Shown piece by piece: positions 1 through 20,679 of a stretch of DNA of 21,432 bases; position 1 is the first letter of the stretch; each line of letters begins with the position of its first letter. Location: the IMG/VR virus record IMGVR_UViG_3300048091_000048, positions 1 through 21,432 of that record; one strand, given 5' to 3'. The translations under genes and the position numbers were made by a program. The notes under the pieces are model-generated. The model did no database searches, was not told the origin of the DNA, and was given only the letters and a program-made list of their open reading frames with translations. This DNA comes from a virus.

Positions 1-3000
1 CCTACAACCTCCCGCTCATGGGCGTGGATGCGCTGTCGCTGAAGCAGGCTCCTGAAGACCAGAAGAAGGCCTTCCTCTTCCTGCTCGATAACTTTGAGAA
101 GGTTGACTACTCGTGGGCCGGTGCTGGCCGCTTCGCCAAGTATGCCGCGCTCGACCCGACCAACTATGTAGGCCTCGGCACGCTCGGTGTCGGTGCTGCT
201 GCGGCTGAAGGCGCTCGCCTGACGACCGCCGCTGGCATCAAGGCTGCGCTGAAGGTCGGCCTCATCGGCGGCATGGAAGGCGCTGCCTACGGCGGTGCCC
301 AACAGCGCATGGAACAGGAAGCCCGTGTCAACACAGGCGGACAGGATGCTGTCGATTACGGCAAGGTCGCCCTCGGCGCAGGTGTCGGCGGCGGCTTAGG
401 TTTCGTCCTGGCTCCGCTCATCACGGTCGGAATGAACGGTCTTGGCAGAAATGTGGCCAAAGATGCAGCCAAAGAGGGCGATGGGGCAATCACGTCCATA
501 CTGCATAGCCCTACCGACGTTCCACATACTGAGTACACCACTCAGCCGTCTCTGGACCTCGGGAACATGGCTAACCCCAATCAGGCCGCTCAGGCCTCTG
601 CCGACGCCGCAGCCCGCAACGGCCAGCTCGGTGTCCCTGAGACCGCCACCCAGCCAACCCTCCCCGGCTTCGCCCAGAACGACCTGTCCAAGGCAGTCCC
701 GTTCAACGAGCTGCCGCTGGAAGGCCGCGTGGACGCCCGTCCCGACTTCCTCATGCCTGCCCCACAGACCACGATCACCGAAGAGGCTGACCGCCTCATG
801 GCGAAGTGGAAAGTGCAGGAACAGGCTGACCTCTTCCCCAACCACACCCCCGATCCCCGGCTCCCGGCGTCTGCCAAAGATGGCACGATCAAGCTGGAGA
901 GTTCGACGGCGCAAGGCTCCCTGTTCGACCGCCTCCCCGAAGTCACCAGCACGTCCATCGACGACGCAGTGTCTAAGGCGGCTGAACTCAACACCGCCAC
1001 TGCTGGCTCTCCGCTGTCCCCAGCGAAGGGCGTCTTCGAAAGCGTCCCCAAGCCCAAGCCGACCGAGAAGATCGGCGGCACCGAAGGCCCGAACCTGATG
1101 GATCTCAAGCGCCTGCTCAACGATGTGGGCAGCACCATCAAGGACGAGGTCGCTCGAGGCTGGACACAGCTCACCGATGTCAGCGACCCGCTGGCTCGTG
1201 CGCTGATGCATATGACGCCTGAAGATGCTCGCAACCTCGCTCGCCAGTTCTCACACTCCGCGATGACGCAGGACGAGTTCAAGGGCTACACCGCCGCTGC
1301 CATCAATGCGCAGAACTCCATCAAGCGTTATGTCGATGGCCTGCTCTCCGACCGTGCGCTCTCCACGACTCCTGAAGCCAAGAAGTTCTTCACCGACAAG
1401 ATCGTCGTTGCTGAACGGATCATGGACCCGTTGAAGACGCTCGCGAAGGAAGCTGGCACCACGTCAGGCACCTCGCTCGTGATGCACCGCCAGAACCTGT
1501 TCAAGGGTCTCCAGCGTGACATCAACCTCGACAGCGTCCTGAAGGACATGGGCCTCGACCGGCTCCTGGCTACGGACGACCAGAAGGCCGACGCGATCCA
1601 GAAGTGGTTCACGGACATGGTCGATAAGACCGAACGCCTCGAGAAGATCGACAAGCTCGTCAACCTCAAGCGCGAGCTGTCCGACGCGATCACACCGCAG
1701 GACTACACCACTCTAGCAGAGGCCTACCATCTGGCCCTCGCTGACGTGAAGCGTACAGAGCTGGGCGGCATGTCCGCCGCTGGCCAGTTCAACGAAGCTC
1801 GCAAGCGTTGGATGGCCGACACCGGCTCCTTCCTCGCGCACACCGTCCTCTCGCCGTCGTCCCTCACTGTCGGCGCTATCTCCAACTCCGCTATGGTCTT
1901 CTCCCGCCCAACCCTCGACTTCATTGCGAGGGGCGCGGACAAGATCGCGTTCAAACAGATGACCTCCACCTACGGAGCGATGTTCCGCGTTTCAAACACG
2001 GCGTTCGCTCAGGCTCGCCTCGCATTCGAAACGGAGCGTGCCCTGCTAACCGGCCTCGACCCCAAGTGGGTGGAGAACGGCATCAAGAGCATCGAGAGCG
2101 AAACCGGCCAGAGCAACATCACCAAGTTCATGGGCCGCAACGCTGTCCGCATCTGGACCCGCTTGCTCAACGCCACGGACGAGTTCTTCCAAGTCGTATC
2201 GTACCAAGGCTTCGTCGAAGGCAACGCAGTGGCTAAGGCCATGCTCGCCGCGAAGGACCAAGGTCTCGACAAGGCGGCTACTGATGCGCTCGTGAAGGAC
2301 TACGTCAAACTCGTCCTCGACAACGCCTACACCAAGAACCCCGACAACCTGACCATCGGCATCCTCCGCGAGACCGGGATCAAGAAGGGCTACTCTGGTG
2401 ACAACCTGAAGCTCTACATCCAGAACCAGCTCGACGAGAACCCCAAGCTCCTGCGACGGGCAACCGACGAGGAAGGCATCAGCTACACCAACGATCTCCT
2501 GTTCAAGCGGGAGTTCTCCGGTGATAACACCGCCTCGACGCTGGCCAAGAACTATGAGGCCGCGATCCGCGCTCACCCAGAGCTGCGTATCATGGGACAG
2601 CTCTTCTTCCGAACGCCTGTCCGCGTGTTCGAAGCTGGCATGCGGCTCACGCCGGGTGTCCAGTATGTCGTCCCGAAGTTCTGGGATGACCTCGCAGGCA
2701 AGAACGGTATGGCTCGCGAGTTGCGTGCCCGTGGTGAGATGCTCGTCTCCTACGGTGTCGCCACCTCGATCATCACCGCATTCGCTACCGGCACTCTCAC
2801 CGGCTCAGGCTACAACCTGAGCGCCCCGCAGAAGGATAAGCTCACAGCCGCTGGCTGGCGTCCTTACTCCCTGAAGGTCGGTGAAAAGTACGTCAACTAT
2901 CGCAACTACGATCCAATCGCGACCCCGGTCAAGATCATCGTCAACGCGATGGAGCGTTTGCAGAAGATGGACATCCGCATCGCGCAGGGCGAGATCGAAC

Positions 3001-3824
3001 ACAAGACCGTCTTCGAAGACGTGTTCGCCTACGTCGGCCTCGCTACCGCTTCTATCCTCCAGTCCGTGCAGGACGCCAACCTCACCTCAGGCATCACCGA
3101 TGCCGTGAAGGCATTCGAGATGGCGGCTGACCCGGAGCGCAAGGAGAACAGCTTCAAGCAGTTCGTCGGCAGCAAGGCCCAGCTACTGGTGCCTAACGCG
3201 GTTCGACGTGGTGTGAAGTTCTTCGGCGAAGGCCAGAACGTGCAGACCGACGCCTCGACGATGAGCCAGGTTATGGAAGCCATCATCAACCCCGCTAGTG
3301 ACCGTGTCACAGACAAGTTCGACGCGCTTGGCAACAAGGCCTCGACGCAACAGCAGGGCTTCTTCCCGTACATCGGTATCGACGCTCAGGGCCGCGAGGC
3401 TCGCAGTCGTGGACTAGGTGAACGCGATGTGAAGACGCTCGACAAGATCGCCAACCTGACCTTCAAGACCGGCCAGACGTTCACTCCCTCCCCCAAGATC
3501 GGCAACATCGATCTGAAGGAAGAGATGACGGCTGACGGCACCAGCACGCTGTTCAACAAGGTCATGCGTGAGTTCAACAAGAACATGCCTGACGCAGCCG
3601 CCTCCTTCTTTGAGAAGGCTGGCCATCTGCCGATCGGTCGTAAGGGTACTAGCCCACAGGGCGACGCATTCTCCCGCGTCAGCGCGGCGCAGTGGAAGGC
3701 AGCAATAGCTGTCACCGCACGCACCGAACCCTCGATCAACAAGGCTGTGCTGGATCAGCTCGGCATCAAGCAGGATGTCCAACGCGGCAACCGCGAAGTC
3801 GGCACTCCGTCATTTCTCCAATAA
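1..3824 (+). CDS. Internal virion protein, T7 gp16-like (5' end outside window)
   Basis: The reading frame is open at the left edge, so the true start lies upstream; about 1273 C-terminal residues are visible, against about 1318 for T7 gp16. The assignment rests on size, position directly before a T7-type tail fibre gene, and composition: an Ala/Gly-rich N-terminal part with hydrophobic stretches, a Pro/Thr-rich linker roughly between residues 155 and 370 of the visible part, then a long mainly helical, charged C-terminal region. In T7, gp16 is ejected into the cell and forms part of the DNA channel across the envelope; its N-terminus carries a transglycosylase domain, which here would be outside the window. 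A 23-bp promoter-like motif lies inside the gene at 485-507. No catalytic motif is visible in this part. The gene ends 9 bp before the tail fibre start. Confidence 0.75.
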   Translation, partial: YNLPLMGVDALSLKQAPEDQKKAFLFLLDNFEKVDYSWAGAGRFAKYAALDPTNYVGLGTLGVGAAAAEGARLTTAAGIKAALKVGLIGGMEGAAYGGAQQRMEQEARVNTGGQDAVDYGKVALGAGVGGGLGFVLAPLITVGMNGLGRNVAKDAAKEGDGAITSILHSPTDVPHTEYTTQPSLDLGNMANPNQAAQASADAAARNGQLGVPETATQPTLPGFAQNDLSKAVPFNELPLEGRVDARPDFLMPAPQTTITEEADRLMAKWKVQEQADLFPNHTPDPRLPASAKDGTIKLESSTAQGSLFDRLPEVTSTSIDDAVSKAAELNTATAGSPLSPAKGVFESVPKPKPTEKIGGTEGPNLMDLKRLLNDVGSTIKDEVARGWTQLTDVSDPLARALMHMTPEDARNLARQFSHSAMTQDEFKGYTAAAINAQNSIKRYVDGLLSDRALSTTPEAKKFFTDKIVVAERIMDPLKTLAKEAGTTSGTSLVMHRQNLFKGLQRDINLDSVLKDMGLDRLLATDDQKADAIQKWFTDMVDKTERLEKIDKLVNLKRELSDAITPQDYTTLAEAYHLALADVKRTELGGMSAAGQFNEARKRWMADTGSFLAHTVLSPSSLTVGAISNSAMVFSRPTLDFIARGADKIAFKQMTSTYGAMFRVSNTAFAQARLAFETERALLTGLDPKWVENGIKSIESETGQSNITKFMGRNAVRIWTRLLNATDEFFQVVSYQGFVEGNAVAKAMLAAKDQGLDKAATDALVKDYVKLVLDNAYTKNPDNLTIGILRETGIKKGYSGDNLKLYIQNQLDENPKLLRRATDEEGISYTNDLLFKREFSGDNTASTLAKNYEAAIRAHPELRIMGQLFFRTPVRVFEAGMRLTPGVQYVVPKFWDDLAGKNGMARELRARGEMLVSYGVATSIITAFATGTLTGSGYNLSAPQKDKLTAAGWRPYSLKVGEKYVNYRNYDPIATPVKIIVNAMERLQKMDIRIAQGEIEHKTVFEDVFAYVGLATASILQSVQDANLTSGITDAVKAFEMAADPERKENSFKQFVGSKAQLLVPNAVRRGVKFFGEGQNVQTDASTMSQVMEAIINPASDRVTDKFDALGNKASTQQQGFFPYIGIDAQGREARSRGLGERDVKTLDKIANLTFKTGQTFTPSPKIGNIDLKEEMTADGTSTLFNKVMREFNKNMPDAAASFFEKAGHLPIGRKGTSPQGDAFSRVSAAQWKAAIAVTARTEPSINKAVLDQLGIKQDVQRGNREVGTPSFLQ
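485..507 (+). promoter_or_regulatory. Candidate phage RNA polymerase promoter, copy 1 (inside the virion protein gene)
   Basis: This 23-bp sequence begins GGCAATCACG and ends ACTGCATA. It matches three intergenic copies (16908, 19630, 19680) at 22 of 23 positions. It is on the same strand as the genes. Here it is read as codons for Ala-Ile-Thr-Ser-Ile-Leu-His inside a poorly conserved-looking linker of the internal virion protein. T7 also has promoters inside genes, so a late-gene promoter is plausible. Confidence 0.55.
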
Positions 3825-5627: not shown

Positions 5628-6224
5628 ATGAACTTCATTAAGGACCACGGGACTTGGGTGCTTTACACTCCGGCCACGATCCCGCCCGACGCCCCTGCTG
5701 GCACTGTCTTCTCACGCCGTGTCTCTGATGGTGTCGATTGGTATGACTACGTCAACTCCCCGACTAGCTTTGGCAAAACCACGCTGAAGATCAATGTCTT
5801 CGTTGAAGACGGCATCACCGTCGTCAAGAGGGCATTCCGCGATAAGAACATGGCGTGGCAAATGAACATGCAGATCATCGAACTTGATGATGGCCGCGTC
5901 GATGAGGGACCGATTTGGGATTACATTGGTAAGCAGTACAATCCCGCCACTCATACCATCTCTGAGATCCCTCCGAAGGTCACCCCCGTCACCATCCCCA
6001 CCTCCGCAAGCAAGCTCGGCCTCAAGCGAGCCTTAGCCGAACTAGGCTTGTGGGTGACAGCTCGGGCTATGATCGCCGCGAACCCTGACACACAGGAAGA
6101 GTGGGATCTGGCAATCGAGATCAAACGCACCGACATCCTCACGCAGGGGCTGATCACTGCAATGGCCCTCACGTCGGTTCAGGTTGACAACATCCTGATC
6201 CGCGCGAAGGAGCTAACCGCGTGA
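5628..6224 (+). CDS. Tail-fibre-associated protein (assembly or accessory fibre protein)
   Basis: 198-residue protein directly after the tail fibre gene, with an AGGA ribosome-binding site about 8 bp before the ATG. The N-terminal two thirds are beta-rich and have no motif I can name. The last 70 residues (SASKLGLKRALAELGLW onward, with a conserved-looking NPDTQEEWDLAIEIKR stretch) resemble a helical C-terminal domain often seen in small proteins encoded downstream of phage fibre genes, many annotated as fibre assembly proteins. The function is inferred from that similarity and from position. The stop overlaps the GTG start of the next gene. Confidence 0.55.
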   Translation: MNFIKDHGTWVLYTPATIPPDAPAGTVFSRRVSDGVDWYDYVNSPTSFGKTTLKINVFVEDGITVVKRAFRDKNMAWQMNMQIIELDDGRVDEGPIWDYIGKQYNPATHTISEIPPKVTPVTIPTSASKLGLKRALAELGLWVTARAMIAANPDTQEEWDLAIEIKRTDILTQGLITAMALTSVQVDNILIRAKELTA

Positions 6225-13330: not shown

Positions 13331-14013
13331 CTGACTACATCAAAGCCAAGGCATGGAACGGTAAGGCCCTCAAGGGCAACTGGTTCGTCACCACCAAGCG
13401 TGATGGTGTTCGCGCTATCTGGAACGGCACTGAGTGGCGCAGCCGCGCTGACAAGCCGCTCTACAATATCCCAGCATGGGACTACGACCTCGCGACCGAT
13501 GTTGAGGTGTTCGTCGGATCTTTCCGCGACACCATCCGCGCCACTCGCACCAAGCACCTGAAGGCGGACACGCCAGCCATCAAGCGTGAGCATCTGTTTG
13601 AACTGTCATGCATCGACGTTCGTAATGTCCGCGATGTGTGGACAGATCCCACCGCCGAGCAGATCAACGCTGAGCTGGCGCTGGCGCTCGATGAGGGGCA
13701 CGAGGGGCTGGTGCTACGTCAGGGTCTCAAGTGGCTTAAGGTGAAGCCCGAAGACACCACCGACTTGCTGATCACTGGCGCTGTCGAGGGTGAAGGCAAG
13801 CATGTCGGTCGCCTCGGCGCGATCATGACCAACCTGGGTGAGATCGGTACCGGCTTCTCTGATGACGAACGTGAAGAGCTGTGGCTCGACTTCAACACCG
13901 GCAAGCTGATCGGCCAGACTGTTGAGTGTAGCTACATGCACCTGACCGACGACGGCAAGATGAGGCACGCACGGTTCGAACGTATGCGCCCTGACAAGGT
14001 GGCTGACCGATGA
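13327..14013 (+). CDS. Compact ATP-dependent DNA ligase
   Basis: 228-residue nick-sealing ligase. Motif I is KRDGVR with the adenylated lysine at Lys24; motif III contains Glu60 (TDVEVFVG); motif IV is EGLVLR (126-131); motif V is LKVK (137-140). The C-terminal part, with RLGAIMTNLGE and HARFERMRPDK, fits the small OB-fold domain. T7 ligase has 359 residues, so this is close to the minimal catalytic core plus OB fold, like other small phage ligases. It would join Okazaki fragments and repair nicks. The ATG at 13327 is coupled to the preceding stop (ATGA) and has a purine-rich GGAAAGG upstream. In T7 the ligase gene follows the polymerase gene; here it lies before the integrase. Confidence 0.92.
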   Translation: MTDYIKAKAWNGKALKGNWFVTTKRDGVRAIWNGTEWRSRADKPLYNIPAWDYDLATDVEVFVGSFRDTIRATRTKHLKADTPAIKREHLFELSCIDVRNVRDVWTDPTAEQINAELALALDEGHEGLVLRQGLKWLKVKPEDTTDLLITGAVEGEGKHVGRLGAIMTNLGEIGTGFSDDEREELWLDFNTGKLIGQTVECSYMHLTDDGKMRHARFERMRPDKVADR

Positions 14014-14030
14014 GCGAGGGGAGCAAGACC

Positions 14031-14270
14031 ATGTCCACTCCTGTACCGCTCGACAACCCAACGAGCCGTTTAGAACGGGTCAAGATTGGCGCGCGAGAGA
14101 CCACAACATTCCTCGCCACGGTAGACGACCTCATCATCTACCCTACTACCAATGGAGGGGTAGTCGTGGAGTTCGTCGTTCACGGAGCGAACGGCAAGCC
14201 TCGCGAGAGCTACCGCATGACCGCCTGCCCTGAGGATGCCGACCGGCTAGCAACATTCAGAAACCGTTGA
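14031..14270 (+). CDS. Hypothetical early phage protein
   Basis: 79 residues starting MSTPVPLDNPTSRLERVK. GAGGGGAG at 14017-14024 favours ATG 14031; ATG 14010, overlapping the ligase stop, would add seven residues. It is beta-rich (TTFLATVDDLIIYPTTNGG, VVVEFVVHGANG). No function recognised. Last sizeable gene of the early operon. Confidence 0.55.
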   Translation: MSTPVPLDNPTSRLERVKIGARETTTFLATVDDLIIYPTTNGGVVVEFVVHGANGKPRESYRMTACPEDADRLATFRNR

Positions 14271-14274
14271 GCAA

Positions 14275-14343
14275 ATGAAAGATATCCACTGGTGTCTCGC
14301 CCTCTGTTTCATCGGTTCCTTTGGGATCGCCTGCCTCATCTAA
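14275..14343 (+). CDS. Possible 22-residue membrane peptide
   Basis: A short frame reading MKDIHWCLALCFIGSFGIAC then LI and TAA. A short charged start is followed by one membrane-length hydrophobic segment. It begins 4 bp after the previous stop. There is no clear ribosome-binding site, though translation could be coupled. Confidence 0.35.
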   Translation: MKDIHWCLALCFIGSFGIACLI

Positions 14344-14348
14344 ACCAG

Positions 14349-14368
14349 AGGTTTCGATAATGGAACCT
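14349..14368 (+). terminator. Candidate terminator at the end of the early operon
   Basis: AGGTTTC (14349-14355) pairs with GGAACCT (14362-14368) with one G-T wobble, a 6-nt loop and TTTACTCTT following. The stem is short, so termination would be partial. It lies between the early operon and the promoter and operator of the winged-helix gene. Confidence 0.35.
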
Positions 14369-14374
14369 TTACTC

Positions 14375-14414
14375 TTGACGTTTAGCTACACATACGTAAG
14401 AAATACGAATGTGT
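14375..14414 (+). promoter_or_regulatory. Promoter-like element with an 11-bp inverted repeat (candidate operator)
   Basis: TTGACG (14375-14380), a good -35 match, is followed by an inverted repeat: ACACATACGTA (14388-14398), a 5-bp centre, then TACGAATGTGT (14404-14414); 10 of 11 positions are complementary. A -10 would fall inside the repeat (TAAGAA at 14397-14402, 16-bp spacing, poor match). A palindrome over a core promoter, about 100 bp before a winged-helix gene, is the usual layout of an autoregulated repressor. This is the longest intergenic space in the early region apart from the genome end. Confidence 0.55.
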
Positions 14415-14515
14415 GGGGAACTTCAGATACCTTTCCAACTTAGCTTCCCACCATAGGCACTCAGAAATATGAGCATTAGGCTTCAACGGTTTTCAAAGCG
14501 CAGGAGATTTACATC

Positions 14516-14839
14516 ATGTCGGTACACAGCCTTACCCGGTCCCTCGAGCTGGTCGCCAAGGATCTCGGTGGGGAGATGCAAGTCAACACCATGCTGGTCT
14601 TCCTCTTCGTTGCAAAGCGGGGGAAATGCACCCAGAAGGATGTGGAACTCGACCTGAAGATCAGTAACGCCGCCGCCTCCCGCAACGTGAGCTACTGGAC
14701 TGACCGCCGGTATGATCGTCAGGAGGGTCTAGGCTTCATAGACCGCGTCGAGGGTGACCACGACCGCAGGTTCAAAGAGCTGACCCTCTCTCCGCGCGGC
14801 AAGGACTTCTACAAGAAACTATTGGCAGCAGCAGCATGA
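14516..14839 (+). CDS. MarR-like winged-helix DNA-binding protein (candidate repressor)
   Basis: 107 residues. The fold is read from the sequence: helices around LELVAKDLGGEMQVNTMLVFLFVAKR, a helix-turn-helix KCTQKDVELDLKISNAAASRN, then a wing and C-terminal helix (FIDRVEGDHDRRFKELTLSP, then RGKDFYKKLL), as in MarR-family regulators. GGAG 9 bp before the ATG supports the start. It sits between a palindromic promoter-like element and the integrase, which suggests a lysogeny regulator controlling itself and perhaps the integrase. The short length implies one winged-helix domain with little dimerisation surface. An activator or architectural role is the alternative. Confidence 0.7.
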   Translation: MSVHSLTRSLELVAKDLGGEMQVNTMLVFLFVAKRGKCTQKDVELDLKISNAAASRNVSYWTDRRYDRQEGLGFIDRVEGDHDRRFKELTLSPRGKDFYKKLLAAAA

Positions 14840-15045
14840 GCATCGTTCTCGCATTCGCTGGCGTCATCGCCCTCAAGTTCATCCTCGTGAGCCTGATCGG
14901 CAGCGGTGTGCGTCGTGTGACAACCTCTCAGGGAGACACCAATGGCAAGACCCCGGAACGACGGGTGGGAAGCGGACGGCGTGGATCGCCACGGCAAGCG
15001 GCGGCGCGTTATGTTCAAGACGGAGGAACGCGCAGTAGACTATGA
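14836..15045 (+). CDS. Possible small membrane protein overlapping the integrase start
   Basis: The ATG overlaps the stop of the winged-helix gene (ATGA). The 69-residue product has one hydrophobic N-terminal segment (MSIVLAFAGVIALKFILVSL) and a basic tail that overlaps the integrase gene by 104 bp in another frame. The coupled start and membrane span favour a real peptide; the low-complexity tail, probably dictated by the integrase sequence, and the lack of a ribosome-binding site argue against. Confidence 0.35.
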   Translation: MSIVLAFAGVIALKFILVSLIGSGVRRVTTSQGDTNGKTPERRVGSGRRGSPRQAAARYVQDGGTRSRL

Positions 15046-15922
15046 GCGGAACGTCCTATCCCATCGCAGCACCAACACAATCGGTCACCTGTTCCCTATC
15101 TGGCAGGAGATCCTCTGGCCTAAGGACATCAGCCGCGACCCCTGCGTCCGCAGCCGGGTCAAGGAAGTGACCGAGCTGCTGGGCAAAGACCTGACCATCC
15201 GCTCCATCGACAGCGCCAAGATCGAGGAACTGCGCCTGGCCCTGACCGCCAAGGGGAACAAGATCAACACCGTGGCCAACAAGCTGAACGCCCTGTCGAA
15301 GCTGTTGACCCACGGCGTCAAGACCAAGCAGATCGACTACGTCCCCCACTTTGAAGTTCCACGGGACCACTCGGTGGACCGGACCTACGTCCTGACGGAG
15401 GAAGAGGAAGACCGGCTGATCTCAGCCCTACCGTTGCGGTGGCAGGCCTTCGCCATCTTCCTGTCGGACACCGCCAGCCGGGGGTTCACGGAGTGTCAGG
15501 CCCTCAGGTGGCAGAACATCAACTGGGAGACGCGGGACTGCACGTTCCACAAGACCAAGACGGGAAAGCCTCGGACCATCCGCCTGTCCGCCGACGCCCT
15601 CGCCATCCTGCGGGAGCTGCAACGGCAAGGCTGGGAAGCCCCATGGGCGATCCTCGGGACTGAGGGCTACTCGACCCGGATCTGGCACCAGACGTGGCAG
15701 CTCGCGCTCGCCAAGGCTGGCCTGCCCAAGGGTGAAGTGGTTCCCTATACCTTCCGTCACACTCGGGCCACGCGGCTCGCCAGAACCAAGATGGACGTGC
15801 TGAAGTTGGCGGACTACCTCGGCCACTCCAACCTCACTACAACCAGACGTTACGTCCATCAGGACGCTTCGGATCAGGATGAGTTCGTCAAAAAGCTCGA
15901 ACGCAAACGCAACATTGGCTGA
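14942..15922 (+). CDS. int: Tyrosine-recombinase integrase
   Basis: 326-residue site-specific recombinase. A basic N-terminus (about 1-35) is likely the arm-binding region, a core-binding helical domain spans about 45-135, and the catalytic domain follows. Visible catalytic residues are Arg180 (DTASRGFTECQALRW), a Lys in HKTKTGKPR (Lys206), Arg272 in PYTFRHTRAT, His295 in YLGHSN and nucleophile Tyr304 in TRRYVH. The first His of the usual HxxR box is Tyr269, a tolerated change. GGGAG 6 bp before the ATG fixes the start. Next to the attP-like tRNA half at 16074 and near the polymerase gene, it fits temperate T7-like podoviruses such as integrase-bearing pelagiphages. It should mediate integration into a host tRNA gene. 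Confidence 0.95.
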   Translation: MARPRNDGWEADGVDRHGKRRRVMFKTEERAVDYERNVLSHRSTNTIGHLFPIWQEILWPKDISRDPCVRSRVKEVTELLGKDLTIRSIDSAKIEELRLALTAKGNKINTVANKLNALSKLLTHGVKTKQIDYVPHFEVPRDHSVDRTYVLTEEEEDRLISALPLRWQAFAIFLSDTASRGFTECQALRWQNINWETRDCTFHKTKTGKPRTIRLSADALAILRELQRQGWEAPWAILGTEGYSTRIWHQTWQLALAKAGLPKGEVVPYTFRHTRATRLARTKMDVLKLADYLGHSNLTTTRRYVHQDASDQDEFVKKLERKRNIG

Positions 15923-15948
15923 CCCTGAAGATCCTTGTAGACATACGC

Positions 15949-15986
15949 AGAACATCGAACTAAGAGAACGCATACAGAACAAGAAC
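15949..15986 (+). repeat. Four AGAAC repeats, candidate integrase arm-binding sites
   Basis: AGAAC occurs at 15949, 15965, 15976 and 15982 in an A-rich stretch between the integrase stop and the tRNA-like half. Composition is unlike the surrounding GC-rich DNA. Short direct repeats flanking a core are typical arm sites of tyrosine integrases; the role is inferred. Confidence 0.4.
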
Positions 15987-16033
15987 AAAGTGACACAGTG
16001 GCAAATACCTTCGCGATATCGTCACGATTGGCC

Positions 16034-16062
16034 TTGCTCTAAGTCTCGGAAATGTCTATCAC
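16034..16062 (+). promoter_or_regulatory. Candidate promoter directly upstream of the tRNA half
   Basis: TTGCTC (16034-16039), a 17-bp spacer and TATCAC (16057-16062) match sigma-70 boxes at 3/6 and 4/6 positions. The tRNA-like sequence starts 12 bp after the -10. If the phage supplies the 5' half of the tRNA at integration, it must also supply a promoter, and this is where it would be. Confidence 0.35.
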
Positions 16063-16073
16063 AACCGCTATGG

Positions 16074-16111
16074 GGCCATGTGGCGGAATGGTTACGCGCC
16101 GGTCTGCAAAA
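16074..16111 (+). other. Candidate attP core: 5' half of a tRNA-Cys (GCA) gene
   Basis: The sequence follows tRNA-Cys numbering from base 1 to base 39: acceptor strand GGCCATG (16074-16080), T8 and G9, D-arm GCG...CGC with AATGGTTA in the loop (16083-16097), anticodon stem CCGGT (16099-16103), and loop CTGCAAA with anticodon GCA at 16106-16108. After 16111 the expected complementary strand ACCGG is missing, and no T-arm or matching acceptor strand follows, so it is not a working tRNA gene. A tRNA fragment ending in the anticodon arm beside an integrase gene is the standard signature of an attachment core. Here the phage carries the 5' rather than the usual 3' half. Confidence 0.75.
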
Positions 16112-16192
16112 GCAAGGTTTAGGCCTACCAAAGGCCGACCCGCTGACCCCGCAAACCCTGTGAATTAAGACGTTTCCAAGGCGAATTAATTT

Positions 16193-16213
16193 GCACACGA
16201 TCATACCGTGTGC
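16193..16213 (+). repeat. Perfect 7-bp inverted repeat in the attP right arm
   Basis: GCACACG (16193-16199) and CGTGTGC (16207-16213) with a 7-nt centre. It lies just before the strong terminator. It could be an integrase or accessory-factor site, or part of an RNA structure. Two GAATTAA copies (16162 and 16183) lie upstream. Confidence 0.45.
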
Positions 16214-16220
16214 GAAAGCG

Positions 16221-16262
16221 CACCCACTCCGCTAGCGCAAGTAATGCGGATGTGGGTGTTTT
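16221..16262 (+). terminator. Strong intrinsic terminator downstream of attP
   Basis: The left arm CACCCACTCCGC (16221-16232) pairs with GCGGA and GTGGGTG (16246-16258), with a single bulged T at 16251, giving twelve base pairs. Four T residues follow directly. It stops rightward transcripts coming from the integrase and attP side before the membrane-protein and polymerase genes. Confidence 0.85.
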
Positions 16263-16280
16263 AACCTTGAAGGAAACGTG

Positions 16281-16907
16281 ATGCTATTGACGGACTTAAT
16301 ATCCCTCTGCAAACGTCCTTGGGGCCGGGTCCGCGTGACCTGTACCGAAGTGACCGGCGATGGCCTCGCCAAGTTGACGTTCAACCTACGGTCGTTTGAT
16401 GGCTCGCTTATGACAGGCGAGCGGACCTTCCCCATCGACACCAAGTTCGACACCTTTGAGCAGTTCGAGGAACAGCTTTGGGAGGGTCAGCTCTTTGAGA
16501 CGACGCCTGCTGAGTGCTGCGGGGAGACGCCTAGCTTGTGGTGGGCTGTGGGCGGGGTTGCGCTGGCCTCGGCGCTCGATTTGGTGATGTATGAGGTCTT
16601 CGGCGCCAATGTCACTACGCCCTTCGCGACCGGGGTGGTCATCCTGGCTATCGTCTTCGGCACCGCCCACGCGCTGCTGATGGCCTGCTGTGGCCCCATC
16701 CTGCACAACGTCCTGACCATCAAGCCCTACCTCACGCTCACCCCGTTTACGCCAAGAGAGTATTTCCTCGCCGCGCTGTGCGTCGTGCTGGCCTTGGTGG
16801 TCCCGGCGCTGATCGACCGTGGGGCCGCTCTCCGGGGCTGGTGTCATCGGGTGGAGTTCTATATCTATGACTGGATGGACTACCTAGCCACTAAATGTGG
16901 TAGGTAG
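16281..16907 (+). CDS. Membrane protein of unknown function with three transmembrane segments
   Basis: 208 residues. Residues 1-80 are a soluble domain (KLTFNLRSFDGSL, DTFEQFEEQLWEG). Predicted membrane segments lie at about 86-106, 117-140 and 161-178, with several Cys residues near them (CC at 79-80 and 136-137). AAGGAA 6 bp before ATG 16281 sets the start; a GTG at 16278 is an alternative. It is isolated between a strong terminator and a hairpin-promoter pair, so it is probably its own transcription unit. In the integrated order it would lie next to the host junction, where lysogenic-conversion or superinfection-exclusion genes are often found; this is speculation. No family recognised. 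Confidence 0.7.
   Translation: MLLTDLISLCKRPWGRVRVTCTEVTGDGLAKLTFNLRSFDGSLMTGERTFPIDTKFDTFEQFEEQLWEGQLFETTPAECCGETPSLWWAVGGVALASALDLVMYEVFGANVTTPFATGVVILAIVFGTAHALLMACCGPILHNVLTIKPYLTLTPFTPREYFLAALCVVLALVVPALIDRGAALRGWCHRVEFYIYDWMDYLATKCGR
16880..16907 (+). terminator. Hairpin covering the membrane-protein stop codon, directly before a promoter motif
   Basis: CTACCTA (16880-16886) pairs with TAGGTAG (16901-16907), and CCAC (16888-16891) with GTGG (16897-16900); one bulged G, loop TAAAT. It ends at the stop codon and abuts the promoter motif at 16908. There is no T-tract, so an RNA-processing role, as with RNase III sites near T7 promoters, is as likely as termination. Confidence 0.55.
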
Positions 16908-16930
16908 GGCAATCACGTCCATTCTGCATA
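16908..16930 (+). promoter_or_regulatory. Candidate phage RNA polymerase promoter, copy 2 (upstream of the polymerase gene)
   Basis: Exact 23-bp motif (begins GGCAATCACG, ends TTCTGCATA), identical to copies 3 and 4. It lies about 140 bp before the polymerase start codon and reads toward it. The core CACGTCCATTCTGCATA is 17 nt long and ends in CATA, comparable to the TATA that precedes +1 in T7 promoters. Confidence 0.7.
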
Positions 16931-17072
16931 CGTCCCGTTTGCCTTACATACACCCACACAGGCTCTGCCACCGTCCGCTTCGGGGACACCTGATCTGCCA
17001 GCAGTGGGGATCGGGTCCGGCATGTGCCCTCTCTTTTTTCCTAATCGTTACGCAACAGTGAAGGTCCAACAA

Positions 17073-19577
17073 ATGCTGATGTCGATCCAGACTGACATTG
17101 AGAATGCCATGGCCACCGAAGCCAAGGCTCGCCAAGACGCTGACAATGCAAAGACCACTGCTCGCGGTGTCTGGTCCGAGAGCAAGACCGGCACCCGTTA
17201 TCAGAAGTCCCTCACTCAGGCCTTCACCGACGTGGTGAGGGAGAAGCTGGCAGGGTTCGCACCGGGTAAGGCCGGGTCCAACATCCGTGCCATCAAGATG
17301 CTGGCCCAGACTGAGATCGAACCGGAGCTGCTGTCCCACCTCTTCGTGAAGGCCCTCCTGAACTCCCTGCCCCTCAAGAAGGGACGCCGCCTGCTACGCT
17401 CCAGCCTGTCCATCCGTGCTGGGGATCTCATCCATGACGAGCTGCGTATCCGGTTCTTCAACCAAACGAAGGAGCGAAAGGCCCTGCTGAAGAAACTGTT
17501 CAAGCAGTTCGACAAGCGGACCTACCCTCGCGACTGGCGTAAGCGGACCATCAAGAACTACTTCGATGCTGAGCAGATTAGCTGGACCCAGTGGGATGAT
17601 GGCCAGAAGCAGATGGTGGGCTATGCCCTCATGCTCTGGTTCCGTGACAGCACCGGCCTGATCGAGGCTCCATCCAACAGCCAGTATGTGGACCCTACCC
17701 AGGACTTCATCGACCACATCCAACAGATGATGGTGAAGCGTGTCCTCGACTACACGCTCTACAAGCCGATGGTGGTGAAGCCTATCCCATGGTCGCTCGA
17801 TAACCTCTTCCGTGGGGGCTACATCAACGACAGTGTGAAGCACTACCCGCTGGTGAAGCGTACCGGCGTGAAGGATGCTGCCGAGCTGATGACCCGTGAC
17901 TGGTCGCAGATCATCCCGGCAGTGAACGACCTGCAAGAGACGCCCTACCGTGTCAACAAGACCATGCTCAGCGTCCTACAGTGGGCGATGAACGAACGTC
18001 GTGGTGACATGGCTGGCCTTCCTCCCGCCGATCCCCGCCCTCTCCCGCCTGAGCCATTCGGCTATCGCGAGAACGAGGAAGTCACCAAGGCGCACAACCT
18101 CGTCTGCTTCAAGATCCACACGTTCAACCGTGAGATCAAGTCGAAGCGTCAGGCCGTGCTGATGACCATGGCGCTCGCAGCTAAGTACAAGGAGTTCGAC
18201 GCCATGTACTTTCCTCACAACCTCGACAGTCGTGGTCGCGCATACCCCATCGCTAGCTACCTTTCACCACAGGGACCAGATGCTACTAAATCCCTGTTGG
18301 AGTTTGGTCGCGGTGAGATCATCACGACTGAAGAGCAGGCGTGCTGGCTCGCCATTGCTTGCGCTAATGCTTACGGAAACGACAAGGTCTCTCTTCAGGA
18401 GAGAGCTGACTGGACCGTGGACAATGAAGAACTGATCGTCTCCGTTGCTAACAATCCGTACTCGGATGTTCGCTGGACCCACGCTAGTGAGCCGTTCCAG
18501 TTTCTGCGAGCCTGCCTCGAGTGGGCTGGCTTCCTGAAGACCGGCATCGGCTACATGACGCACATGGTCATCCCGGTAGACGCAACTTGCAGCGGCCTCC
18601 AGCACTACGCTGGCATGCTGCGTGATGAAGTCGGCGGTCAGGCTGTCAACCTCGTGCCCGGTCTGCCTCGGCAGGACGTGTACAAGGATGTCGCTGAAGT
18701 AACGATCCGCAAGCTGATGGAGACCAAGCCTGCCGACATCGCGATTGGTGAAGGCTCTAGCTTCATCATCAACTCGACCGACGTGGCGAAGAACCTGCTC
18801 AGCATCGGTATCGACCGCAAGATCACCAAGCGTCAGGTGATGGTCGTTCCTTATGCTGGCACCTACGCATCGTGCATGGCCTACACCCGCAAGGCGCTGG
18901 AAGACGAACGCTGGAACGAAGGCGTCGTCTGCCCGTGGGACTTGGAAGACCGGGAGATGGACCTCATCCACAACAACACGCTGTCTCAGCACATCTGGCA
19001 CAGCATCGACGAGGTGGTGGTCAAGGCAAAGGAAGCGATGAAGTGGATGACCACGGCAACGCGCGCCTACGTCAAGATCGCCAACCAGATGCCCGGTACC
19101 GCTAAGCAACGGGCTATCACCTGGGTGACGCCTGACGGCTTCCTCGTGACCCACTACAATGTGGACATGAAGAAGAAGCAGATGGCCACCTACCTAGACG
19201 GGCGGGTGGATCTTGTCCGCTATGAGCCGACCGAGAAGCTGGACGCGGGAGATATGGCCTCGGCTGTGGCTCCCAACTACGTCCACTCCATGGATGCCTG
19301 CCTGCTGCGCATGTCGGTGATCAAGGCGCGGTCGCTTCCTGTACCCATCACCTCGTTCTGCATGATCCACGACAGCTTCGGCGTCCACGCCACCCGCATG
19401 GGCGAGTTCCTGTCAGCCTGCATCCGCCCCAGCTTCGTCAAGATGTACGAGCGGGACGTGCTGGCCGACTTCCGGGACCGCCTGCTCATGACCCCTGAGC
19501 TGGAGCTGAACCCGCTGCCGACCAAGGGCACCCTCGATCTACAGGGCGTCCTCGATAGCGAGTTTTTCTTTTCCTGA
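17073..19577 (+). CDS. Single-subunit phage RNA polymerase (T7 gp1-like)
   Basis: 834 residues from ATG 17073 (AAGG 8 bp upstream), against 883 for T7. Catalytic residues are present: Asp503 in VDATCSGLQHY, Arg582 and Lys586 in DRKITKRQVM, Tyr594, and Asp767 in MIHDSFGVHA; they correspond to T7 Asp537, Arg627, Lys631, Tyr639 and Asp812. The Gly after T7 Tyr639 is Ala here. PNYVHSMDACLLR also matches. The promoter-specificity loop region (between TPDGFLVTHY and APNYVHS) differs strongly from T7, agreeing with a different promoter sequence. The C-terminus DSEFFFS is hydrophobic, like the T7 C-terminal foot. It transcribes middle and late phage genes. Its leader holds a promoter motif and a T-rich run (17029-17038) after a weak stem. 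Confidence 0.97.
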   Translation: MLMSIQTDIENAMATEAKARQDADNAKTTARGVWSESKTGTRYQKSLTQAFTDVVREKLAGFAPGKAGSNIRAIKMLAQTEIEPELLSHLFVKALLNSLPLKKGRRLLRSSLSIRAGDLIHDELRIRFFNQTKERKALLKKLFKQFDKRTYPRDWRKRTIKNYFDAEQISWTQWDDGQKQMVGYALMLWFRDSTGLIEAPSNSQYVDPTQDFIDHIQQMMVKRVLDYTLYKPMVVKPIPWSLDNLFRGGYINDSVKHYPLVKRTGVKDAAELMTRDWSQIIPAVNDLQETPYRVNKTMLSVLQWAMNERRGDMAGLPPADPRPLPPEPFGYRENEEVTKAHNLVCFKIHTFNREIKSKRQAVLMTMALAAKYKEFDAMYFPHNLDSRGRAYPIASYLSPQGPDATKSLLEFGRGEIITTEEQACWLAIACANAYGNDKVSLQERADWTVDNEELIVSVANNPYSDVRWTHASEPFQFLRACLEWAGFLKTGIGYMTHMVIPVDATCSGLQHYAGMLRDEVGGQAVNLVPGLPRQDVYKDVAEVTIRKLMETKPADIAIGEGSSFIINSTDVAKNLLSIGIDRKITKRQVMVVPYAGTYASCMAYTRKALEDERWNEGVVCPWDLEDREMDLIHNNTLSQHIWHSIDEVVVKAKEAMKWMTTATRAYVKIANQMPGTAKQRAITWVTPDGFLVTHYNVDMKKKQMATYLDGRVDLVRYEPTEKLDAGDMASAVAPNYVHSMDACLLRMSVIKARSLPVPITSFCMIHDSFGVHATRMGEFLSACIRPSFVKMYERDVLADFRDRLLMTPELELNPLPTKGTLDLQGVLDSEFFFS

Positions 19578-19588
19578 TCGTTCCCATA

Positions 19589-19620
19589 CCGTAAGTGTTG
19601 CAGATATGTGACACTTACGG
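19589..19620 (+). terminator. Perfect 10-bp hairpin after the RNA polymerase gene
   Basis: CCGTAAGTGT (19589-19598) pairs perfectly with ACACTTACGG (19611-19620), with a 12-nt loop. It starts 11 bp after the polymerase stop and ends 9 bp before a promoter motif. No T-tract follows, so it may be a processing site or a partial terminator separating host-read and phage-read transcription. Confidence 0.65.
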
Positions 19621-19629
19621 GCCGGGAGG

Positions 19630-19652
19630 GGCAATCACGTCCATTCTGCATA
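19630..19652 (+). promoter_or_regulatory. Candidate phage RNA polymerase promoter, copy 3
   Basis: Exact copy of the 23-bp motif, preceded by the G-rich sequence GGGAGG. First of two tandem copies, 50 bp apart, between the polymerase gene and the DNA-metabolism genes; T7 likewise has tandem promoters (phi1.1A and phi1.1B) just after gene 1. Confidence 0.75.
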
Positions 19653-19679
19653 CCCAAACGCAACCATTACGCTTCGGGA

Positions 19680-19702
19680 GGCAATCACGTCCATTCTGCA
19701 TA
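19680..19702 (+). promoter_or_regulatory. Candidate phage RNA polymerase promoter, copy 4
   Basis: Exact copy of the 23-bp motif, preceded by CGGGA. It ends 24 bp before the ATG of the next gene, leaving a short 5' leader with GGGA as a weak ribosome-binding site. Confidence 0.75.
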
Positions 19703-19726
19703 CCGAAACGCTCACCGGGACAGCCC

Positions 19727-19882
19727 ATGACCGACTTAGACCAAATCCGCGAGATCGTCCTCGACGCAGCCAGCGATGGCCTGCTGGGCGATCTGACGCC
19801 TGACGCGATCCGCGACGAGCTGGACCTGCTCAGCCCCGGCAAGCGTGAAGACTACCTCCAGACACTCTGGGACGAGCTGTGA
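19727..19882 (+). CDS. Small acidic protein (51 residues)
   Basis: Starts MTDLDQIREIVLDAASDGLL and ends LQTLWDEL. It is acidic and helical and is the first gene after the tandem promoters. An in-frame upstream start would run back through the promoters, so ATG 19727 is preferred. Small acidic proteins in this position in T7 relatives often inhibit host enzymes (for example T7 gp2 on host RNA polymerase); no such similarity is visible here. The stop overlaps the next GTG. Confidence 0.55.
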   Translation: MTDLDQIREIVLDAASDGLLGDLTPDAIRDELDLLSPGKREDYLQTLWDEL

Positions 19883-20037
19883 ACCGACTCGCCCAGATCA
19901 TGAAGGAGATCGTCGATATCGACACCCAACTGACCGCGCTCCGGTCTGAGCGGGTAGTCGCCTTCGACAGTCTCCGCACACTCAGAACGCGGCGCTCCGA
20001 CATGGTGCGTTCGCTCCAATCATCAGCAGAGAGATAA
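19879..20037 (+). CDS. Small coiled-coil-like protein (52 residues)
   Basis: GTG start overlapping the previous stop (GTGA); TAA lies directly before the SSB ATG. The product starts MNRLAQIMKEIVDIDTQLTA and continues with regularly spaced Leu/Ile/Val and charged residues (LRSERVVAFDSLRTLRTRR), which suggests a single long helix or coiled coil. Function unknown. Seamless coupling on both sides argues that it is translated. Confidence 0.5.
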   Translation: MNRLAQIMKEIVDIDTQLTALRSERVVAFDSLRTLRTRRSDMVRSLQSSAER

Positions 20038-20679
20038 ATGGCCGCAGCAGCCAAGAAGAAATACGTCAAGTACAAGACCCCGGTCGGCACCGCCGTCTAC
20101 CCGAAGCTCCACAAGGCTTACAAATGGGACGACGCATCCGAACGCTCACTGCCCAATCCTGACGGCGACCTGACCACTCGTCTCCGTCTGTCCAACAAGG
20201 ATGCGCAGGGTCTACTCAACGACATCAAGACCGCCATCAAGGACAGCGGCGTCAAGCCGAAGCACCTGCCCTACGAAGACGAAGTCGTCGATGGCAAGAA
20301 GACCGGCAACGTCCTGATCAAGCTCAAGGCCTATGGCAAGACCAAGGAAGGCGAGATCAACAAGATCAAGTTCTACGACAGCGCAGGCACTCCGCTGCGT
20401 GGCGTGATCAACGTGACCCCCGGCTCGACCATTGCTTTGCAGGGTTGGATCTCGGTCGCGAAGATGGGCGCTCGTATGAACATCCGTGAATGTCAGATCA
20501 TCGATCTCGCAGAGATGCAGGGCGAAGGCTTCGCCGCGCATGCAGGCGGCAGCTTCAAGGCTGACGACCTCGACGACGATGAGCTGGAAGAAACCGAAAC
20601 CAAGACCGCCGACACGACCGGCGAGGACACCGAAACTGAAACTGAAGAAACTTCCGACGCCAGCGACGACGAGTTCTAA
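20038..20679 (+). CDS. Single-stranded DNA-binding protein (T7 gp2.5-like)
   Basis: 213 residues with a basic start (MAAAAKKKYVKYKTPVGTAV) and an OB-fold-like body. The C-terminal tail of about 40 residues is highly acidic and ends SDASDDEF with a terminal Phe, the hallmark of gp2.5, whose tail contacts DNA polymerase and helicase-primase. It coats single-stranded DNA during replication and promotes annealing. The position after the polymerase gene and before endonuclease I is as in T7. The tail-coding DNA overlaps the probable start of the next gene. Confidence 0.9.
   Translation: MAAAAKKKYVKYKTPVGTAVYPKLHKAYKWDDASERSLPNPDGDLTTRLRLSNKDAQGLLNDIKTAIKDSGVKPKHLPYEDEVVDGKKTGNVLIKLKAYGKTKEGEINKIKFYDSAGTPLRGVINVTPGSTIALQGWISVAKMGARMNIRECQIIDLAEMQGEGFAAHAGGSFKADDLDDDELEETETKTADTTGEDTETETEETSDASDDEF

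Follow-up and report, generated by a model that had tools for sequence, protein, structure and literature searches.

Predicted promoters for a phage's own T7-type RNA polymerase are repeated around the polymerase gene

The window is the whole stretch of DNA that was analysed, an entire virus record of 21,432 bases (IMG/VR record IMGVR_UViG_3300048091_000048) that is probably a fragment and is without a capsid region. Its left part encodes, in order, an internal virion protein, tail fibre, endolysin, spanin, small and large terminase, a DNA methyltransferase and a ligase. Its right part comprises genes for a MarR-like regulator, a tyrosine integrase and a DUF4118 protein, one copy of a repeated motif, an RNA polymerase (RNAP) gene, two more copies of the motif, two short open reading frames (ORFs), and genes for an SSB, endonuclease I and endonuclease VII. 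An Rfam search of the window returned no match. The features discussed here are the following.

3..3824, + strand: gp16-like internal virion protein gene, 5' end cut (PHROG 6651)
485..507, + strand: putative promoter copy within the internal virion protein gene, matching at 22/23 positions (predicted +1 G503)
14516..14839, + strand: MarR-like regulator (Pfam MarR_2, E 5e-5, just under the curated cut-off; conserved in the relatives G001, G003 and G004)
14942..15922, + strand: tyrosine integrase (PHROG 1; Pfam Phage_integrase, E 1.5e-20)
16880..16907, + strand: predicted RNA hairpin directly before the putative RNAP promoter (-16.3 kcal/mol, z -2.9)
16908..16930, + strand: putative promoter copy before the RNAP gene (exact 23-mer; predicted +1 G16926)
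17073..19577, + strand: T7-type single-subunit RNA polymerase gene (PHROG 414, E 5e-199; Pfam RNA_pol, E 8e-86; aligned to T7 RNAP structures)
19589..19620, + strand: predicted RNA hairpin with a perfect 14-bp stem, after the RNAP stop and ahead of the tandem copies (-31.4 kcal/mol, z -6.7)
19630..19652, + strand: first tandem putative promoter copy after the RNAP gene (exact 23-mer; predicted +1 G19648)
19680..19702, + strand: second tandem putative promoter copy after the RNAP gene (exact 23-mer; predicted +1 G19698)
20038..20679, + strand: Gp2.5-like SSB gene, downstream of the tandem copies (PHROG 112, E 7e-12)

The motif GGCAATCACGTCCATTCTGCATA is found exactly at 16908-16930, 19630-19652 and 19680-19702, and a fourth copy, at 485-507, matches it at 22 of 23 positions, with a T-to-A change. 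A scan of both strands re-found these sites exactly where an earlier sequence-only reading of this DNA had placed them. All four are on the + strand, and the minus strand of the window contains no copy of the 23-mer. ORF positions also bear out the claim of that reading that the copies lie on the coding strand and that three are intergenic. The 16908 copy directly follows the DUF4118 ORF, which ends at 16907, and precedes the RNAP ATG (17073). The tandem copies come after the RNAP stop (19577) and ahead of the next ATG (19727), whereas the 485 copy is within the internal virion protein gene. At up to three mismatches, the 17-nt core matches the window four times, compared with a mean of 0.02 in dinucleotide shuffles, and in a weight-matrix scan of the window the four sites score 42-43 bits, with the next best site below zero. 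The motif is asymmetric, and its orientation always follows the direction of transcription. Both in the window and in its relatives, it is thus a directional motif of about 23 bp that is repeated before phage genes, as is characteristic of T7-type phage promoters.

PHROG 414, Pfam RNA_pol and alignment to T7 RNAP all identify the product of the gene between these copies as a full-length single-subunit polymerase, the kind of enzyme to which T7-type promoters belong. It aligns to T7 RNAP across most of its length, including the stretches that hold D537, K631, Y639, H811 and D812 of the T7 enzyme. No sigma-70-like site was found before the RNAP gene. A sigma-70 promoter for this gene was rejected, because the single match in a scan of 14000-20100 is weak and lies inside the RNAP gene, and shuffled sequences contain more matches than this.

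An exact scan of IMG/VR for the 23-mer found no match. Because the motif is too lineage-specific for such a scan, relatives were gathered through the RNAP; bacterial genomes scanned with the window RNAP yielded no relative. The 31 relatives tested have at least 100 nt before and at least 350 nt after the RNAP gene, and in 25 of them a 20-mer is common to both flanks of this gene, above the maximum of 20 shuffles. In most cases this shared motif precedes the gene by 50-200 nt and follows it by 5-60 nt. Where the window has its 16908 copy, relatives carry their lineage's own motif. The same place is occupied by phi1 in Pseudomonas phage LUZ100, whose phage-specific promoters phi1-phi8 were mapped by ONT-cappable-seq (PMC10134795).

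Individual relatives illustrate how the motif varies. In G002, whose RNAP fragment is 94% identical to that of the window, the same tandem pair is present and both copies read CCCCTCCATACTGCATA, which means that they changed together; the G002 core is CCCCTCCA, versus CACGTCCA in the window. G001 (RNAP 66-68% identical) has ATTACCCCTTCCATACCGCACC before and ATTATCCCTTCCATACAGCACC after its RNAP gene, and its 45.8 kb contain no further copies at up to 6 mismatches. The Roseobacter phages CRP-403, CRP-804 and CRP-118 have good minus-strand copies directly upstream of a minus-strand glutaredoxin/thymidylate synthase cluster, as expected of promoters. The copies of the window are all on the + strand, and the minus-strand copies of the CRP phages occur only before minus-strand genes. 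The predicted promoter is lineage-specific in sequence and constant in anatomy.

The predicted promoter of the window comprises an A-T-containing element, GCAAT (-17 to -13), the core CACGTCCA (-12 to -5), TTCT (-4 to -1), which would be the melting region, and a G at +1 within GCATA; the start is preceded by the 17-nt sequence GCAATCACGTCCATTCT. The most likely +1 is this G (503, 16926, 19648 and 19698). Alignment to the promoters of LUZ100 (AATTA CCACACAG TCTT G) and T7 (TAATA CGACTCAC TATA G) places the start there, and L042 and L043, which have CACTATA or CACTACA, then A or G, then CACC, were also aligned for register. T7-type promoters start at a purine 17-18 nt from the 5' edge; here the alignment favours G+1, with an ambiguity of one nucleotide. 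The sequence-only reading had considered a +1 after CATA, a register that is off by five bases, and had worried about an unusual start base. With an ordinary G as the predicted start, this concern is removed. A start after CATA was rejected on two grounds: it would place the A-T element near -20 and the bases that covary with the polymerase (see below) around -14 and -16, and it fails to align with the mapped starts of LUZ100.

In T7 RNAP, a specificity loop at residues 739-770 reads bases -11 to -7, with N748 at -10/-11, R756 at -9 and Q758 at -8 (PMC5937735). Changes in the motif accompany changes in this loop. The RNAPs of L031 and L033 are 98.9% identical, and of their 9 differences in 807 residues three are in the loop (741, 746 and 758; p = 0.003); the core is CAACACCC in L031 and CCGCCACC in L033. 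The RNAPs of L031 and L039 are 81% identical, yet they have the same core. Within the L039 clade, whose promoter reads ACTTA-N8-ACTAGAAGG, residue 746 determines base -7 (R with C; H, L or Q with A) and is alone in doing so among 60 variable columns. This rule is not universal, as it fails in L044 and is not followed by the CRP phages. More broadly, the residue aligned with T7 758 predicts base -8 in 17 of 18 lineages (R with C, Q with T, N or S with A), and none of 200,000 permutations matched this, although these lineages are in part related to each other and the same data had suggested the rule.

In the family of the window, the 758 rule fits at -9, in three of three cases (G002, R with C; L022, Q with T; L027, N with A), and the window itself has D with G. 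Because of this fit at -9, the family may be offset by one base pair, or +1 may be one base upstream of the predicted G. The start is thus uncertain by one nucleotide. Between the window and G002, enrichment of substitutions in the loop is not significant (4 of 29 sites, p 0.10). For the window enzyme, we infer that the core, at about -11 to -7, is matched to the specificity loop, with the shift of one base that is seen in its family.

The repeats could conceivably be operators, and not promoters, through which a phage regulator such as the MarR-like protein encoded at 14516 controls the RNAP region. That gene is present upstream, and for temperate T7-like phages it has been proposed that MarR sites flank the promoter of the RNAP gene (PMC10134795). 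However, operators would not account for an asymmetric motif that is always aligned with transcription and whose core covaries with the RNAP specificity loop. Moreover, the equivalent LUZ100 sites are mapped promoters, and separate dyads near the promoters of CRP relatives fit operators better, all of which makes this reading very improbable. Alternately, because the RNAP gene is flanked by direct repeats, and because polymerase lineages with swapped specificity exist, the repeats might be sites of recombination, replication or packaging that bracket an exchangeable RNAP cassette. Against this stand near-identical RNAPs that have different motifs and matching loop changes, the presence of tandem copies on one side only, the copy within a virion gene at a conserved codon, and a strand that follows gene direction. 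Such a role has hardly any chance of being the correct one.

The repeats are very probably promoters recognized by the phage's own T7-type RNA polymerase. This is what the sequence-only reading had proposed, and the proposal is supported by the conserved placement around the RNAP gene, by the covariation of the motif with the specificity loop and by strand. We infer transcription from the repeats, their exact +1 and the feedback outlined below on the basis of this placement and covariation and of lineage-specific conservation.

The copy at 485 deserves separate consideration, because it sits within an open reading frame. Perhaps only the RNAP-flanking copies are promoters, and the 485 copy is an inactive coding coincidence or relic. 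Consistent with this, no copy was recognized at that place in the gp16-like gene of G001, and the gp16-like gene of LUZ100 has no mapped promoter. However, codon-order shuffles of the 3-3824 gene reach at most 17/23, compared with the 22/23 observed. In addition, G004, in which a 127-nt end overlap indicates a complete genome, encodes a gp16-like protein to which that of the window is 54% identical (672/1247), and the third G004 copy is inside this gene, at the same alignment column and codon as the 485 copy. It is G004's own version of the promoter (GGGGCACCTACACCCATACAGC against GGGGCAATCACGTCCATACTGC), retained even though the peptides at this place differ (GAITSILH versus GAPTPIQQ in the window/G004 comparison). 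The 485 copy is therefore unlikely to have arisen by chance or from coding constraints alone, and we consider it improbable that it is inactive.

Strong copies number three in G004 and in G003, and two in G001 and in G005. They bracket the RNAP gene in all four genomes, and the third copy of G003 follows terminase, as does phi8 of LUZ100. By analogy with T7, the sequence-only reading led us to expect strong copies before the capsid gene, an expectation that did not hold: none above the scan thresholds is found there in G001, G003, G005 or the complete genome G004, each scanned throughout. Capsid-operon copies are a common trait of the T7 family, and not one that strictly defines it. Weaker copies in front of late genes are found in the CRP phages by a weight-matrix scan. 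Presumably, transcripts that start at the post-RNAP promoters are long enough to cover the structural genes.

It is quite possible, if somewhat short of probable, that integrase-bearing T7-like phages as a group combine a self-activating RNAP gene and very few promoters with a specificity that switches through one or two loop residues, in a simple residue-to-base code that is shifted by one base pair from the start in the window's family. The few-promoter part of this reading is based on the four relatives scanned in this lineage, whose strong copies number two or three; in the window's family, one copy is embedded in a virion gene.

For the window, read-through by host RNAP from upstream, on the integrase side, would make the first polymerase. 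This enzyme would then transcribe its own gene from the 16908 copy, which would constitute positive feedback, as has been proposed for LUZ100. The tandem pair at 19630/19680 would serve transcription of the replication genes, and the 485 copy that of the distal late genes (the rest of gp16, tail fibre, lysis and terminase). Such an arrangement would extend the LUZ100 finding that the RNAP gene of a temperate T7-like phage lies behind its own promoter, and models of lysogeny must keep the resulting loop silent.

Several predicted RNA or DNA structures are found near the repeats. The 16880-16907 hairpin is a possible terminator or processing site. The 19589-19620 hairpin, which may serve as a terminator or as a site of RNase III-type processing, is kept in G002, where the outermost C-G pair is replaced by G-C. 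The RNAP leader (16926-17072) includes a hairpin, weak in the window, followed by TTTTTT at 17034-17039. The same arrangement occurs in G001 (rc 2500-2613) and G004 (rc 41939-42026), which makes three of three full members of the window's family, and it is absent from all other relatives inspected; it may terminate or attenuate transcription in the self-activating loop. Dyads of the type GTTACGNTANCGTAAC are found in CRP-118, L052, L053, L055 and L056, upstream of the RNAP promoter and just past the RNAP stop, and are perhaps candidate operators for the MarR-like regulator. In L023, L025, L043 and L044, the transcripts predicted to start at the post-RNAP promoter begin (C)ACCAAAACG-C/T-CTTTGGT(G), with a 5' stem-loop at the start that we take to be reminiscent of the T7 gene 10 leader.

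The G001 record (L005) opens between integrase and RNAP: the integrase gene ends at rc 45801 of 45810, and the RNAP gene starts at rc 2611, as if from a prophage integrated between these genes. Integration there, if it is real, would cut the RNAP gene off from read-through of the integrase operon, and would help to silence a self-activating gene.

Although this kind of element is already known, the natural set of covarying pairs is unusually informative. The window would contribute a new RNAP-promoter pair, probably orthogonal, with GGCAATCACGTCCATTCTGCATACCC as the cognate template form of the promoter. About 20 natural polymerase-promoter pairs are available for comparison, and the T7-type recognition code is testable with them residue by residue (746 with -7, 758 with -8). 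Literature searches of open-licence papers found no published promoters in the window's lineage.

Among known systems, the nearest named genomes by RNAP (37-38% identical) are those of CRP-403, CRP-804 and CRP-118, which share with the window the MarR-integrase-RNAP order and motif copies that flank the RNAP gene. In contrast to the window, their motif is of the type ATTAATCACCCTTNCTAGAA, and additional copies precede primase and, on the minus strand, minus-strand genes. The word 'promoter' is absent from the CRP genome paper (PMC11092137). LUZ100 (OP329100), a temperate-type T7-like phage, has the same order of MarR, integrase, promoter, RNAP, tandem promoters and SSB, with phi1 directly before the RNAP gene and the tandem promoters phi2 and phi3 between this gene and that for SSB; the window reproduces this layout, with MarR and integrase upstream. 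Its promoters also resemble those predicted here in having 17 nt upstream of the start, an A-T element, a core and a G start. Unlike the window, LUZ100 has the motif AATTACCACACAGTNTTGGA and an RNAP that is only 32% identical, and one of its eight promoters is before the capsid gene. When LUZ100 was used as a positive control, a weight matrix seeded from the RNAP flanks only recovered seven of the eight experimentally mapped phage promoters at 30-35 bits, with the next site at 9.5. In a related phage, this approach therefore identifies genuine phage promoters. T7 (NC_001604) differs from the window in its core, CGACTCAC, in having TATA, in the absence of a promoter directly before gene 1 and in having many promoters per genome. 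In common with the window, it has the -17 to +6 architecture, the 739-770 specificity loop as reader and, as the sequence-only reading correctly stated, tandem promoters just after the RNAP gene (phi1.1A and phi1.1B, at 5848 and 5923).
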